DNA from: Oligoflexia bacterium
Lineage (GTDB): Bacteria > Bdellovibrionota > UBA1018
NCBI GenBank assembly: GCA_014376785.1
Contig: JACMQW010000072.1
Location: 1-33,140, forward strand
Direction: 5' to 3'
DNA length: 33,140 bases
How positions within the stretch are numbered: position 1 is the stretch's first letter; every line of letters starts with the position of its first letter. The notes under the pieces were generated by a model. It saw only the letters and a program-made list of their open reading frames with translations, ran no database searches and had not been told where the DNA came from. Below, one piece after another: positions 15,765 through 22,999 of the stretch. The position numbers were made by a program, and so were the translations under genes.

Positions 15765-16409
15765 TTACTCGGGAACTTCTTCAGCAGGCGCTAAGTCGAC
15801 CGGGGGATGTGACGCGGGAGTATAATTTTTTACGGGCGCCGATTTTCGATGGTTTACGGAATGAGGGTGTTTTTTCACCAACTGGGCGGTGGCCGGACCG
15901 CTCTTCAAATCAAAGATGATCCGAGTCGGAGCGGAGAGTTCAAAGATTTCGACTGGGGTTGCCGATTTTAAATAGAGCGCGAAGGTCCAGGAGTCTTCCT
16001 CCACCTTCGGAAACAGTTCCACGCGGCTCACGACTAGGCTTTTTCGAAACGCATCGACCACCTTTTTTGCATCAAGCCCGAGACGAGGGCCGCCAAAAAT
16101 CGTTGTGATCATCCGGTGATTCAAAGGCTCCACGGAAACCTGATAATAAGGAGCTTTTTCAGATTCGATATCGATGACAATTCGCTCGTATCCGCCATTC
16201 GACGCGCGACGAATATTTTTAATCAGCCCCGACTGGATTTGGCGGTCTCCCCCGGTAACAAGTCCCTCTTTCAAATAACTTTCCGTTTTCTTCGGCAATG
16301 CTTCCCGAACGTCATTCGGCTCGAGCGCCGCCCCTCCGGAGACAGACCAGAGTAAAAAGAGAAACGGCGTAAGACTAAAAACCCAGCGAGATGGAGTCGA
16401 AAACGTCAT
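15765..16409 (-). CDS. Exported AMIN-like domain protein
   Basis: This 214-residue protein has a signal peptide at about residues 1-28. Its central part (about 60-170) has the beta-rich pattern of AMIN domains: GYERIVIDIES, PLNHRMITTIFGGPRLGLD, then a second half VVSRVELFPKVEEDSWTFAL and FELSAPTRIIFDLKSG. AMIN domains are found in the N-terminal part of cell-wall amidases and secretins and localise them to the envelope. There is no amidase domain here. The C-terminus is a Pro/Ala-rich tail ending EEVPE. It follows the 266-residue gene after seven bases and probably shares its transcript. Confidence 0.8.
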   Translation of the reverse strand: MTFSTPSRWVFSLTPFLFLLWSVSGGAALEPNDVREALPKKTESYLKEGLVTGGDRQIQSGLIKNIRRASNGGYERIVIDIESEKAPYYQVSVEPLNHRMITTIFGGPRLGLDAKKVVDAFRKSLVVSRVELFPKVEEDSWTFALYLKSATPVEIFELSAPTRIIFDLKSGPATAQLVKKHPHSVNHRKSAPVKNYTPASHPPVDLAPAEEVPE

Positions 16410-17465: not shown

Positions 17466-18305
17466 TTATCTGATGCGACGATTCAGCTTAAGCAGTTCTG
17501 CGCCCGTAGTCGCATCCACGACGGATTGGACCCCGCGATTCTGAATGACGTAAGCCCGCCTCAGGAGGGTGACCGGAGCGGACTGCGTGACAAACAGGAC
17601 AGGCTCGGACTCGAGCGGAACGGCGATCGACGCCACGTTCTCGACCTGAATAGAGGGATAAACGGAGGAATCGAGCGTTCGGAGCTCTCCATCCGGGCCG
17701 ATTAATACCGAAACCAAACCACCTGGATAAATCGGGACGCCGTCGATGGCTTGTTGAAAAACCACTTGTCCCTGGCCGTGCCCGGAAGGGTCGCCGGGCG
17801 TGGATTTCGGCGCTAAGAACTGGATGTCGTTTGAAATTCCTAGAAGCGCACGGGAGTCCGAAAAAATTTCGCGAGCACGGCCGATTAATTCAGACGCGTT
17901 CGCGGAGTGGAAATCCGACACACGCTGGTTTGCCGTTAAATTTTCGGATCTTCCTGCGATAGCATTCATTCGCACAACCCGAGTGTCATCCCGGGAAAAC
18001 GAAATTTCGTCGCCATATTTCCGATTGAAAGCTTCCTCGTTAAGACCGGAGTAAGTCTTTTTTGTGAGTGGTGGTTCAGACGTTCGCGGGTCAGGTGCAG
18101 ACGCTGGGTTTCTGGCCGATGCACTCGAATGCGGACTGGGAGCCGGAATAGCCTCTTTTGAGGCATTCTTTTCGCGCGTTTTTCTCAAACCTTCTCTCAT
18201 TGCGGCGGCAGGAGCGGGAGCCTCGCGCTCTGGACTGTAAAAGCCCGCAACAATCGCGACCATGAATGCGAAAGCAAAAATAATGAGCGCAAGTTTTTGA
18301 TTCAT
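17466..18305 (-). CDS. Stand-alone membrane-anchored thermolysin-type propeptide (FTP/PepSY-like)
   Basis: This 279-residue protein has one N-terminal membrane helix (residues 5-22), a Pro/Ala/Ser-rich linker (about 25-80), and an extracytoplasmic domain. The latter matches the propeptide half of M4/M36 metallopeptidases: VVFQQAIDGVPIYPGGLVSV then LIGPDGELRTLDSSVYP (181-217), the FTP-type 'Q..dGvPVy....v....dG', followed by RRAYVIQNRGVQSVVDATTG at 249-268, the PepSY-type 'aYvvDAttGe'. No catalytic domain follows. Its ATG overlaps the stop of the metallopeptidase gene by four bases, so the two are translationally coupled. In known proteases this segment is a cis chaperone and inhibitor; here it would act in trans. 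Confidence 0.8.
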   Translation of the reverse strand: MNQKLALIIFAFAFMVAIVAGFYSPEREAPAPAAAMREGLRKTREKNASKEAIPAPSPHSSASARNPASAPDPRTSEPPLTKKTYSGLNEEAFNRKYGDEISFSRDDTRVVRMNAIAGRSENLTANQRVSDFHSANASELIGRAREIFSDSRALLGISNDIQFLAPKSTPGDPSGHGQGQVVFQQAIDGVPIYPGGLVSVLIGPDGELRTLDSSVYPSIQVENVASIAVPLESEPVLFVTQSAPVTLLRRAYVIQNRGVQSVVDATTGAELLKLNRRIR

Positions 18306-20149
18306 TGGATCGTTACCGGAAAGGTGACGCTAGATGTGGCGGAAGTCTTATTCGCCGTATCGACTTCGACGGTGAAGGTGACGGAACTCCCCGTTCCTGC
18401 CCCGCTCGGAATGGATACATAAAGCGCGGTGTCTTGATTCACACCGAACGGAACGACCCCCGCGCCGACTGCAGGTCCGAAATAAGAATTTGTAATTCCG
18501 GTTTGCTGGGCGGCAGAACCCGTGTTCATCGCCGTCACAATGGCGCTCCCATTAATTTTCGAATACCGAACAAATGCAGTCGTTGAATTAATGTAACCGG
18601 GGTTTTTTGCTAAATTGTTTACGAATGTAGCCTTCGTGGAATCTGAAATCGTGACTTTTAAAAGAGGAGCAGCGGCAGTCGTACTCTGAGAGTTCATCAC
18701 ATCAAACCAAAGCATGCCGGTGTCACCCGGGCTCATCTTGTAGTTTCTGACTCCGGAAGTGGATGCCGTTTCGTAGTAAAAAGTTCCGGCTTGGACCGCA
18801 ATTCCTCCCGGCCCCTTAGCAGCCCAACCATCCGCGATCGAAGTGAGGTTCGTCAGCCCTCGAGCGGAAAGGGCGCTCGACATCGCAGTCTGCTCTGAGC
18901 CGCTGAACGTTCCCGCGGTCGAGCCGGACGCCACGCTCAGGAGAGAAGTCGCAAAAAGAGGCATCGTCACAGGGGAGGGATTAGAGACACTGTACTTCGG
19001 AAGCGTCTTAATCGTCTCGACTACTAGACGGATTAAGCGGCGCTTAGTCGCGGGCCCATCCCCACTGGACGCTTTGATGGCTAAAAAGATGTCAAATAAG
19101 GCTCCGCTAAAAACCGGAGCGGCTTGGTGTATTTCTTCGAAACTTGCGTATGGGTCTTGATAGACGGACTTCAGAGTCGCACCCGTTGCCGGACCCGCGT
19201 AGGGCCAGCCCAGGCCATCCGGATAAGAAAAACTGACGTAGCGATTCAGAGAAGAAAACCCGGAAGCGGATTTGTTAAAGTAGGTGCAACCGCCTGAATA
19301 TCCGGCCGCCCATAAAGGACATTTCGAAGCACCACGTTCTGAGTTTGTGGAGAAAAACTGACCTAAAGACCAACGGCTGAAGTCGGTATTCGCAAATGGG
19401 GACACCAACGCTGCATCGGATTGCATCAGGGCAACGAAATCGGAAATCGCTTCATTCATCGTTCCGGCTTCATCGAAATTCAATTTATTAAAATCTTCGC
19501 TCATCGAATACGCATGCCCGGTCACGCCGTGTTGCATTTCATGATAAATGACTTCGGCATCGTCTGAAAAACTCGTCGTAGCTGAATAAGTGCTCGAGTA
19601 ACCCATGCAGAGAAAGGGCGGCTGAGATCCGTAGGGAGGCGAATAGTAGGCGTTATCTTTCACATTACAATTCGCGATCATCAAAAAAGTGCTCGCTGGA
19701 AGCAGGGATGAAGAAGCGGCGAGTTCCGAGCGAAACCGATTCCCGTGGTAATAGCTCATGACTTCCGCGAACCGCTCATCGCTGTGAGGGTAGCGAAAAT
19801 CATTCGAGTCGCTGTAGGATCCGTAACTTTCGTTGCATTTGTCTGAAATGACGTCGACGTAGGTGCCCTTCAGATTCCCGTAACCCTGAAGATTCGCAAG
19901 CGAAACCGATGACGTATAATTTCCGATGAGGCTAGATGCCGGTGAAAGGGTTGCATTTCCGGATGCGATCATCGGATCCAGTTCGAACGCGAGTCCTTGT
20001 CCAGTAGTACCTGCAACGGGGCTAGCCGGAATCGATTCGGGACAGTACTCTGCTCCGGTGGTCGATTTGGTCACAGAATTTTTAGCACAGGAAAATGCAC
20101 TGACTGCGGCTAAAAAGAGGGTCAGCGATCGGGTGAGAAAAAGGTTCAC
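18302..20149 (-). CDS. Thermolysin-like (M4/M36-type) lipoprotein metallopeptidase
   Basis: This 615-residue protein begins at a GTG and carries a lipoprotein signal with lipobox AFSC (Cys21), followed by Ala, which favours outer-membrane sorting. The zinc site is HEMQH at 203-207, with third ligand Glu233 in MNEAISDF, as in thermolysin-like and fungalysin peptidases. The upstream FRYPHSDERFAEVMSYYHGN matches the M36 catalytic-domain entrance. The catalytic domain begins near residue 50, so the long FTP/PepSY propeptide is missing. The C-terminal ~170 residues are Ser/Thr-rich and beta-like (GAGTGSSVTFTVEVD), perhaps a PPC or Ig-type domain. It overlaps the propeptide-like gene by four bases and lies 87 bases after the TPR-barrel gene. 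Confidence 0.87.
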   Translation of the reverse strand: MNLFLTRSLTLFLAAVSAFSCAKNSVTKSTTGAEYCPESIPASPVAGTTGQGLAFELDPMIASGNATLSPASSLIGNYTSSVSLANLQGYGNLKGTYVDVISDKCNESYGSYSDSNDFRYPHSDERFAEVMSYYHGNRFRSELAASSSLLPASTFLMIANCNVKDNAYYSPPYGSQPPFLCMGYSSTYSATTSFSDDAEVIYHEMQHGVTGHAYSMSEDFNKLNFDEAGTMNEAISDFVALMQSDAALVSPFANTDFSRWSLGQFFSTNSERGASKCPLWAAGYSGGCTYFNKSASGFSSLNRYVSFSYPDGLGWPYAGPATGATLKSVYQDPYASFEEIHQAAPVFSGALFDIFLAIKASSGDGPATKRRLIRLVVETIKTLPKYSVSNPSPVTMPLFATSLLSVASGSTAGTFSGSEQTAMSSALSARGLTNLTSIADGWAAKGPGGIAVQAGTFYYETASTSGVRNYKMSPGDTGMLWFDVMNSQSTTAAAPLLKVTISDSTKATFVNNLAKNPGYINSTTAFVRYSKINGSAIVTAMNTGSAAQQTGITNSYFGPAVGAGVVPFGVNQDTALYVSIPSGAGTGSSVTFTVEVDTANKTSATSSVTFPVTIQ

Positions 20150-20236: not shown

Positions 20237-21853
20237 CTAGAACCGGTAACCGACTCCAGTGGCGACCGTAAAACGGTCATAAGCATACGTGGTGTTGTCG
20301 CTTGAATTGTTTTTTGTCAGATCTGCGCTTACGACCACTTCCCACCTCGGCCCGATTTTACGTGAAGCGAGAAGAGAAAGAGAATAGAGGGAATCTATTC
20401 TCAGCGACGAAGAGTTTGGGTAATTGGTCTTTTCATAGGCCAGCACCTGGGCAAATTCGAATTTATTCAAAGAGAATGAATTGATGAACTGAATACCATA
20501 GAGACGGGACTTAAACTCATCACCCTCGGTCCTATTTGCTTCAAAGCGGAAGAGGTAAACAGGGTGAAAATAGCGGGCAGTCGATTTCAGTTGGGCAGAA
20601 ATTTTTCCGACGACTCCATTTCCTGAGCGTCTCAGACTCGAGGCCACACTTTCTTCGCCGGTGTAATTCAAAATTCTGTAGCCGACCTCGGCGGAAAAGA
20701 GCCAAGACTTCGAGCCATCCCACTTTGCATAAGGCGCTAGGGTAAGCGCTTTATCATAAAGGCGGTATTTACTGGAACCTATGGCTCCGTCGATTTGATT
20801 TTGGAAAACAAGAGTTCCTTCTGTTTTCAAACCATAGGCGAGAGGCGCTAACGCGTTCTTCGTTAAATAGAGGGATGCGGTGGTGTCTCCAAATTCTCCA
20901 GCCGAAGAATCGTGGTTAAAATTCTTGTTCAAATTGAAGCGAAAGCTTGGAACATATTGGAGACTAGCCAGGGGCGAGCTGGCAAACCCGACCCCAGTAG
21001 ATAGCATCGACTTCAAGGTAGCCTTTCCACTGCTGGTGGAGGAATTTACGGAGTTCGACGGCACGAGCAGGACGTTTGAGTCATATCCCAGCAACGCACT
21101 GAAATTTCCAAACCACTGCGAGTGATCGAATGGTGATAGCGTCGCAACCGCGGCGACTCTTACCTGCTCCGCTAATTTTCGTGATTCGTTGGATGATTCC
21201 TCGCGACCTAAGACATTTTCGGACAACCGCTTCGCTTCGAGAAGATTTTCAAACCCCCGTGAAGGGTAGCCCATTTTGAAATTTACTTGGGCCAGATAGT
21301 AATGAGCGGCCGGCTTAATTTCGTCGATCTTTCCTATAGTCGTTTCTTTTAGGTTAAATTGGGCCCGCGCCCATTCTTCTTCCTGCGAAAGAACAAGCCC
21401 CAGATAGAATCTCGAAAGATCGGTGTTGAATCCATTTTTCGCGGAATAAGAAAAGTAGCTGTCCGCTTGCTTCCATTCTTTATCTTGATAGCGAAGCATT
21501 CCGAGTTCAAAAGCGTAGGGCGCGATTTCCTTTTTATCGCTTCCCGATTTCGTTTTCATCTGGATGAGTTCTCGGTATGCGGCGCTCGCGCCACTGGAAT
21601 TTTTCAGCGCTCGGTAAGAAATTGCGCGAAGCTCTAGAACCTCAACTGAGGTCGGCGCTTTTTTTTGAAGCACTTCCAACATTTTCAGAGTGCTATCGTA
21701 GTTGTGGGCATTGAATTCCAGAACCGCTTCTGAATACTCGGGTTCGAATTCGTTAGGGAGTTCCGCCGTCGCAAAAGACATGGGTATCCAAAGGCCCACC
21801 AGGGTGAGTTCGGAGATACGGAGAAGGCTTGCCTTACTTGGTTTCTTTCGCAT
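20237..21853 (-). CDS. TPR plus beta-barrel outer-membrane protein (Slam-like architecture)
   Basis: This 538-residue protein has a signal sequence (about residues 12-30), tetratricopeptide-type repeats over about 35-205 (YSEAVLEFNAHNYDSTLKML, FELGMLRYQDKEWKQADSYF, FYLGLVLSQEEEWARAQFNL), and a C-terminal region of about 300 residues of alternating strands ending YDRFTVATGVGYRF. A terminal Phe is the classic barrel-insertion signal. Periplasmic TPRs plus a barrel of this size is the plan of Slam (surface lipoprotein assembly modifier, DUF560) proteins. The next gene encodes a lipoprotein, which fits. Other TPR-barrel exporters, such as polysaccharide or FecR-linked ones, are possible. Confidence 0.8.
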   Translation of the reverse strand: MRKKPSKASLLRISELTLVGLWIPMSFATAELPNEFEPEYSEAVLEFNAHNYDSTLKMLEVLQKKAPTSVEVLELRAISYRALKNSSGASAAYRELIQMKTKSGSDKKEIAPYAFELGMLRYQDKEWKQADSYFSYSAKNGFNTDLSRFYLGLVLSQEEEWARAQFNLKETTIGKIDEIKPAAHYYLAQVNFKMGYPSRGFENLLEAKRLSENVLGREESSNESRKLAEQVRVAAVATLSPFDHSQWFGNFSALLGYDSNVLLVPSNSVNSSTSSGKATLKSMLSTGVGFASSPLASLQYVPSFRFNLNKNFNHDSSAGEFGDTTASLYLTKNALAPLAYGLKTEGTLVFQNQIDGAIGSSKYRLYDKALTLAPYAKWDGSKSWLFSAEVGYRILNYTGEESVASSLRRSGNGVVGKISAQLKSTARYFHPVYLFRFEANRTEGDEFKSRLYGIQFINSFSLNKFEFAQVLAYEKTNYPNSSSLRIDSLYSLSLLASRKIGPRWEVVVSADLTKNNSSDNTTYAYDRFTVATGVGYRF

Positions 21854-21957: not shown

Positions 21958-22000
21958 TTAGGATGTCAGTTTTTTCTCGGTTTCAATGAGGAGTACGTTT

Positions 22001-22999
22001 GTGAACGAATACCGAACCCACGCTTTGATCGCTTTTTTCATCAGCGCCTTCGCATCCATGCTGCCGCCTTCTGCGCACGCGGACGAGACTTACATTGCTC
22101 GCGCGGTGAGCGTGACGGGAAAAGTCCTCGTTCGCGCTGACAACACGACCGGCGGCCAAATGAATTTTTTAAAGCCAGGCGATAAACTTTTCAAAGGGTC
22201 CATCGTAAACACCGGATCTGATGGAGCCGTAAAGCTTTTGATGACCGATCGAACGATCATCGATCTCGGAGCTTCGTCGCTTTTTAAAATGAACGATTAC
22301 CAGCTGAATAATGTGGGCGACCGGAAAGTAGATTTGTCGCTCGATTACGGCCGCATTCGCGCGTCCGTAAATGAGAAGATCACCTCTCAAAAAGGTAAGT
22401 TCACGATTCGCACGAAGGCCGCGACCATGGGGGTTCGGGGAACAGAGTTCGTGGTAAATTCAACGATGCCGAGTCCGGAAAAGAATGCCGCAGGCGAAGT
22501 TCCTCAAACCGCCTTGACCGTGATGCACGGAAAAGTCGAAGTCGCGGACCTCGCCCAGCCTTCTGCTCCGCCGGTTGCAGTCACTCCGGGCTTTCAGTTC
22601 GCAAAAATGGGCGAGGGGGCGGGGTCCGTTTCTCAGCTTGCTCCAGCTCAAGTTGCTCTCGTTAAAGCGGCGGCTTTCCAAAAAGACATGACCTTTCTCC
22701 AAACGGTTTCCTTTGATCCTTCGCCTGCAAAAACTCGGGCCGATGGAGCATCGAAGGACTCCCCTTCTTCTGCTCCCCCTGCGACTGCTAATAGCGGAAA
22801 ACAAACCCTCGAGAACATTTCTAGCAACGTCGAAAATGGAGCAAAGGATGCGGACAAAGCTCCCATCGCGGACCTCAAACTTCCTGGTACGTTTAACGCC
22901 GGGGTCCCTCAGGTTCGGCCGATCGACCAACTGAATGGACGGGTCGTGAACTTGAGGGTTCGGGTCTGTGTGCCGAGTGCAAACGGAGCCGGCTGCTAA
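22001..22999 (+). CDS. Secreted FecR-domain protein
   Basis: The GTG at 22001 is chosen because GAGGAGT lies at proper spacing just before it; an in-frame ATG at 21986 overlaps that site. The product has about 332 residues: a signal peptide ending SAHA, then a FecR domain over about 25-140 (SVTGKVLVRADNTTGGQMNF, KLFKGSIVNTGSDGAVKLLM, TIRTKAATMGVRGTEFVV). A Pro/Ala-rich low-complexity tail follows. It lacks the inner-membrane helix of the FecI/FecR signalling pair and no sigma factor is adjacent, so this is the secreted, non-signalling FecR type. It is divergent from a TPR-barrel gene, a common association. The end overlaps ilvA convergently by four bases. Confidence 0.88.
   Translation: MNEYRTHALIAFFISAFASMLPPSAHADETYIARAVSVTGKVLVRADNTTGGQMNFLKPGDKLFKGSIVNTGSDGAVKLLMTDRTIIDLGASSLFKMNDYQLNNVGDRKVDLSLDYGRIRASVNEKITSQKGKFTIRTKAATMGVRGTEFVVNSTMPSPEKNAAGEVPQTALTVMHGKVEVADLAQPSAPPVAVTPGFQFAKMGEGAGSVSQLAPAQVALVKAAAFQKDMTFLQTVSFDPSPAKTRADGASKDSPSSAPPATANSGKQTLENISSNVENGAKDADKAPIADLKLPGTFNAGVPQVRPIDQLNGRVVNLRVRVCVPSANGAGC

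Follow-up and report, generated by a model that had tools for sequence, protein, structure and literature searches.

The window, a 33,140-nt stretch of DNA, carries two overlapping genes on its minus strand (Table 1) that we read as a two-gene protease/propeptide module: the first encodes a zinc metalloprotease, and the second a membrane-tethered propeptide that would act on the protease in trans, both as a steric foldase and as a temporary inhibitor. We give this reading a probability of about 0.7, there being no binding or activity data. What the analysis itself demonstrates is the structure of the two genes, the homology of the second protein (the partner) to cis propeptides, the lack of a cis propeptide in the protease, the conserved pairing and the type of anchor on the partner.

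The initial annotation had described the first gene product as a lipoprotein metallopeptidase with an HEMQH motif and a third ligand at Glu233, and this is upheld by the sequence and by an alignment of 20 relatives, in which the zinc ligands and the lipobox cysteine do not vary. Cys21, H203, E204, H207, D226, E227, E233, D237 and H341 are all invariant in this alignment, and His341 is likely to be the proton donor. Pfam M36 (PF02128) matches the window protease with 32.8 bits (cut-off 23.3, E 5.5e-8), the match spanning just residues 160-266, and it also matches 19 of the 20 relatives. The M4 helical domain is matched as well by 13/20 relatives, while the window protein is assigned to M36, not M4. 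A Foldseek search with the protease model ranks four fungal M36 catalytic domains highest among solved structures (TM-score 0.59-0.61 by target, E 2.9e-10 to 4.9e-8), three of them carrying the title ‘without the propeptide’. The window enzyme is thus nearer to fungalysin (M36) than to thermolysin, and its earlier description as ‘thermolysin-type’ is valid at the level of the clan but not at that of the family.

The N-terminal cis FTP-PepSY propeptide that is usual in M36 is absent from this protein. In its AlphaFold model (mean pLDDT 83.9) order sets in at about residue 40-45, the stretch before about residue 40 being disordered, and by hhalign the catalytic domain begins at residue 48. Only some 25-30 residues lie between Cys21 and the catalytic domain, therefore leaving no room for a propeptide, as had been proposed from the sequence alone. 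The distance from the lipid cysteine to the HExxH motif is 182 residues in the window protease and 178-190 in its relatives.

Table 1. Features of the protease and partner genes (positions are those of the window).
Feature	Position	Strand	Remarks
Protease ORF	18302..20149	(-)	615 aa, GTG start; lipoprotein M36-like zinc metalloprotease
Protease layout			Signal peptide and lipobox Cys21; linker to ~45; catalytic domain ~48-435; C-terminal beta domain ~440-615
Cys21, protease lipidation site	20087..20089	(-)	Cys invariant 20/20; next residue never Asp in window family
HEMQH zinc-binding motif, protease residues 203-207	19529..19543	(-)	From sequence; H, E, H invariant in 20 relatives
Glu233, third zinc ligand (NEAISD)	19451..19453	(-)	Invariant in 20-relative alignment
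ATGA overlap: protease stop TGA and partner start ATG	18302..18305	(-)	
Partner (trans propeptide) ORF	17466..18305	(-)	279 aa, ATG start
Partner layout			N-terminal membrane anchor 3-22; low-order linker ~23-88; FTP-PepSY domain ~90-279
FTP-motif stretch, partner residues 177-208, inside VVFQQAIDGVPIYPGG...	17682..17777	(-)	Pfam E 0.13 alone; profile-profile
C-terminal PepSY hairpin and fixed-length tail DATTGAELLKLNRRIR, partner residues 264-279	17469..17516	(-)	

The four-base overlap with the next gene is evident from the ORF coordinates, and the protein encoded there has, as annotated, its own membrane anchor and no catalytic domain: it shows an anchor helix, an FTP-like stretch (VVFQQAIDGVPIY) and a PepSY-like stretch (SVVDATTG), and no catalytic motif was found in its 279 residues. 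On its own the window partner stays below the Pfam threshold for FTP (12.6 bits against a cut-off of 21, E 0.13), and a phmmer search with the partner against PDB gave no match, nor were NCBIfam names found for these proteins. Among 19 partner relatives, however, Pfam FTP is matched by nine (best 6.5e-5) and PepSY by six (best 5.5e-5), and the family profile searched against PDB has its best matches in the Mcp02 propeptide (E 0.011) and pro-thermolysin (E 0.024). In the AlphaFold model (mean pLDDT 83.8) a helix at residues 3-22 leads into a linker of low confidence, which extends to about residue 88, and the folded part spans residues 90-279. A different predicted fold would have spoken against a propeptide; instead, the sole significant match of the model among solved structures is a PepSY protein, YpeB (C-terminal domain, E 9.3e-6). 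The FTP/PepSY-like nature first suggested for this gene is accordingly supported by the relatives, the profile comparisons and the predicted fold, with only a weak, sub-threshold Pfam score for the window protein itself. Some residues are invariant in the partner, as they are in the protease, and the length of the C-terminal tail is constant across 18 complete partners of the window's family, the tail DATTGAELLKLNRRIR stopping where a cis propeptide would join its catalytic domain.

The relationship is clearest in a one-chain protease of 527 aa (L077) from another family (f2) of the same taxonomic order. When the two families are compared with it in hhalign, residues 49-208 match the profile of the partner (E 9.9e-10) and residues 217-524 that of the protease (E 1.3e-8). 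In sequence, partner and protease thus correspond to the front and back halves of an ordinary proenzyme, 8 residues apart in L077, with the gene order reversed. A second one-chain protease (L112) agrees with this arrangement, in which the propeptide is N-terminal, and the earlier remark that protease first and propeptide second is the reverse of the cis order was correct. The partner profile matches an alignment made from eight cis propeptides at E 6.5e-15 (prob 98.4), and in searches it also picks up, without being directed to them, the cis propeptides of proteases 524-556 aa long. These comparisons also bear on another view of the partner, in which it would be a docking or stability factor like YpeB, binding away from the active site and keeping the enzyme at the inner membrane up to the point where a signal causes the partner to be degraded. 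The PepSY domain of YpeB is indeed its best solved fold match, and YpeB is a membrane-anchored protein with PepSY domains that is encoded in a conserved operon with SleB and is thought to keep SleB inactive, possibly until YpeB is proteolysed (PMC13393411). We nevertheless regard this view as quite improbable, in that the protease, unlike SleB, belongs to a class whose cis propeptide corresponds to the partner, and L077 displays the usual propeptide relation.

The genomes surveyed for the pair are mostly metagenome assemblies. When contigs were scanned, a single protease sequence as query gave no match, while an alignment as query worked. Within the window's GTDB family the protease is present in 22 of 35 genomes, and a profile search places the partner directly downstream in 21 of these 22; none of the 13 genomes without protease has a partner. 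Two of the 21 partners (G008 and G027) were spotted by position before being entered into the partner profile, and because of this their profile scores are not independent. Order and strand are constant in the loci read, with a spacing of -11 to +21 nt. In the 22nd genome (G009), a 78-aa ORF (L148 1755-1991 (-)) has a four-base overlap with the stop of the protease; it resembles a PepSY hairpin, although not significantly, and is possibly a shrunken partner. Three genomes of the family (G017, G027, G033) also hold ordinary cis FTP proteases, and the split form is consequently not simply the way these bacteria deal with such enzymes. In one genome (G025; L041, L042, L104) stop codons interrupt the protease frame, representing either a pseudogene or sequencing error.

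Around the pair, a TPR protein gene lies 87 nt upstream of the protease (20237-21853 (-)) and may be co-transcribed with it; the C-terminal part of its product is possibly an outer-membrane domain. Divergent from it is a gene for a FecR-domain protein (21986-22999 (+), Pfam E 5.2e-13). An AMIN-like domain protein, slightly below the Pfam cut-off, is encoded at 15765-16409 (-), and a similar ORF near the G009 protease (L148 4488-4979) hints at a conserved neighbourhood. A scan for promoters and terminators gave no signal above shuffled expectation.

The pairing recurs across Bdellovibrionota, a phylum of predatory bacteria. One further pair occurs in family f3 (G048), FTP-type split pairs are found in f7 and f16, and possible further cases, in which the gene for a lipoprotein HExxH protein precedes one for an anchored protein, are seen in f8 (L218), f16 (L219) and f22 (L122, L124, L127). 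A large set comes from f9 (Bacteriovoracaceae-like), where a lipoprotein protease of 775-900 aa, related to that of the window family (hhalign E 1.1e-37), is accompanied by an anchored partner of 165-225 aa with a C-terminal PepSY-like hairpin (consensus SFxAxVDSETGxxxxTWxRT). This reduced partner is directly downstream and on the same strand in 105 of 118 protease genomes (median gap 11 nt), and among the remaining 13, several are truncated by the end of a contig or carry a divergent neighbouring gene that the profile missed. Adjacency in relatives, which had been put forward as a check on the pair, is thus near-universal. The tie of the f9 partner to propeptides is weaker: it aligns with the window partners (A1) at 71.6% (hhalign, E 3.5e-5) but with cis propeptides only at prob 15 (E 0.0018), and Pfam PepSY is found in 3 of 37 sequences (best E 0.003). 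Its clear sequence likeness is limited to the C-terminal hairpin, which means that a complete FTP foldase cannot be the rule.

Given this distribution, it is hardly credible that the two neighbours are functionally unrelated, or that the split is a product of frameshift, sequencing or assembly. It is true that the window genome is an assembly of 103 contigs and that the partner's own Pfam score is weak, but order, strand and tight spacing are kept across the window family, f3 and f9, and both proteins have invariant residues. A frameshift, which would have undone the original proposal, can be excluded, as the pair is conserved in more than 100 genomes and its order is the reverse of that in cis proteins, which no single frameshift could create.

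Cis-type proteases of f11, f14 and f18 are without such a partner and have a different, lipocalin-like protein next to them. They include eight loci (L119, L123, L126, L129, L130, L131, L134, L144) with cis-FTP lipoprotein M4-like proteases, whose conserved downstream neighbour is a secreted, lipocalin-like protein of 160-180 aa (...GEPGFCE...WVNPxN...DPDM...). In one f20 genome (G326, L146; about 1-876 and 1717-2595), an anchored stand-alone FTP protein (over the Pfam FTP cut-off, E 2.4e-7) is encoded upstream of a lipoprotein HExxH protease, the opposite of the gene order in the window. In an unrooted tree, support is firm for two of the split clades, A and C, and lower for B, which has two sequences. 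The union of the three has a support of 62 and breaks up in a second tree; a single origin of the split cannot be taken as established, being neither shown nor excluded.

The lipid cysteine of the protease is invariant in the window family (20/20) and in f9 (25/25), and Asp directly after it occurs in one f9 sequence only. In E. coli, the residue after the lipid cysteine bears on outer-membrane sorting (the +2 rule), and by this rule the inferred destination suggested for the protease is the outer membrane. An N-terminal hydrophobic stretch above 1.6 (Kyte-Doolittle) is present in 17/19 partners of the window family and 30/37 of those in f9; a lipobox was never seen in either set, and an AxA site is rare. 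The window partner does have AxA, and cleavage of its anchor therefore cannot be excluded.

In the proposed mechanism, the upstream gene would give rise to a Sec-exported, M36-like lipoprotein protease without a prodomain, and the downstream, translationally coupled gene would supply the missing FTP-PepSY prodomain as a protein of its own, with the N-terminal helix as inner-membrane tether and a flexible linker reaching into the periplasm. The emerging protease would be bound in trans by the tethered prodomain, in the same geometry as a zymogen after processing; the prodomain would help the catalytic domain to overcome the barrier to folding and at the same time shield the active site. The finished lipoprotein may then move on, to the cell surface or the outer membrane, or degradation of the partner may set it free, the tether retaining the prodomain when the enzyme departs. 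A ‘pre-cleaved zymogen’ geometry is suggested by the fixed length of the C-terminal tail and its ending at the cis junction, and the shrunken f9 partners suggest that hairpin plus tail are the minimum unit. Sequence shows the pairing; physical binding, foldase activity, inhibition, the outer-membrane destination and reuse of the partner are all inferences. M4/M36 propeptides aid folding and inhibit, and the enzymes generally require them in order to fold. A foldase and inhibitor in trans is inferred from these roles and from the likeness to Lif/LipH, CpaB and YpeB (see below).

It may be asked whether folding is involved at all, since the partner could be an inhibitor or safety device only, a tethered FTP-PepSY domain that guards the cell's own periplasm against a protease able to fold by itself. 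We think this unlikely: the protease has no other propeptide, in a class where one is generally needed for folding, and the near-obligate pairing, without lone copies of the partner, suggests dependence. The partners that have shrunk to a PepSY hairpin and tail would, on the other hand, fit inhibition better than folding, and stand-alone inhibitors resembling propeptides do exist, such as SUB1-ProM (PMC6993865). Keeping to the reading of a foldase that also inhibits, we hold it fairly probable, though far from secure, that the pairs represent an undescribed class of steric foldase, in which M36/M4-like lipoprotein proteases of Bdellovibrionota have given their own propeptide to a separate membrane-tethered protein, able to shrink to an anchor and a C-terminal PepSY hairpin, with the consequence that enzyme and propeptide separate as the enzyme exits the inner membrane. 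No description of a trans FTP-PepSY propeptide, or of such a pair in Bdellovibrionota, was found in the open-access literature.

Thermolysin-like propeptides are the textbook case of single-use folding helpers that act in cis. Here, a propeptide has apparently been turned into a separate, possibly reusable, membrane-bound helper and retained in many genomes of a predator phylum, which would unite propeptides and dedicated foldases (Lif, CpaB) as one solution. As the partners range from a full FTP-PepSY domain to a PepSY hairpin, they provide a natural system in which to ask what part of a propeptide folds the enzyme and what part inhibits it. A likely function can also now be offered for proteins without an NCBIfam name.

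Several known systems share features with the pair. SUB1-ProM is a free-standing propeptide-like protein, encoded beside subtilase genes, and a potent inhibitor of SUB1; it differs in belonging to the subtilisin class and in that SUB1 keeps its own cis propeptide, and the abstract reports no membrane anchor (PMC6993865). YpeB is alike in its anchored PepSY domains, its operon with an enzyme and its fold, but has a cortex-lytic enzyme as client, belongs to spore formers and has no demonstrated origin from an FTP propeptide. The mark of the YpeB family, an adjacent gene for a cortex-lytic enzyme, is lacking here, the neighbour being an M36-like protease and not SleB. CpaB of Acinetobacter is a chaperone with a single transmembrane helix, encoded immediately downstream of the metallopeptidase CpaA and required for its secretion (PMC4713064); it has an SRPBCC-like domain rather than FTP-PepSY and a narrow taxonomic range, and CpaA is adamalysin-like and type II secreted, whereas the window protease is an M36-like lipoprotein. 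Lif/LipH foldases are encoded in one operon with their client and consist of an N-terminal transmembrane helix, an unstructured linker and a periplasmic domain, the tether of LipH stopping its co-secretion (PMC13381987). They resemble the partner in this anchor-linker-domain topology and in having the gene beside that of the client, but their fold is unrelated and mostly helical, the client is a lipase and the foldase is not derived from the client's own propeptide; no Lif family Pfam match was found in the partners at E up to 10, the predicted domain being a beta-rich PepSY instead. The proenzymes of fungalysin (M36) and thermolysin (M4) share the catalytic fold and residues of the window protease, and their propeptides are homologous to the partner. 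In these proenzymes the propeptide is fused ahead of the catalytic domain, whereas in the window it is separate, anchored and encoded downstream, and in the protease, a lipoprotein, the catalytic domain comes after the lipid anchor.
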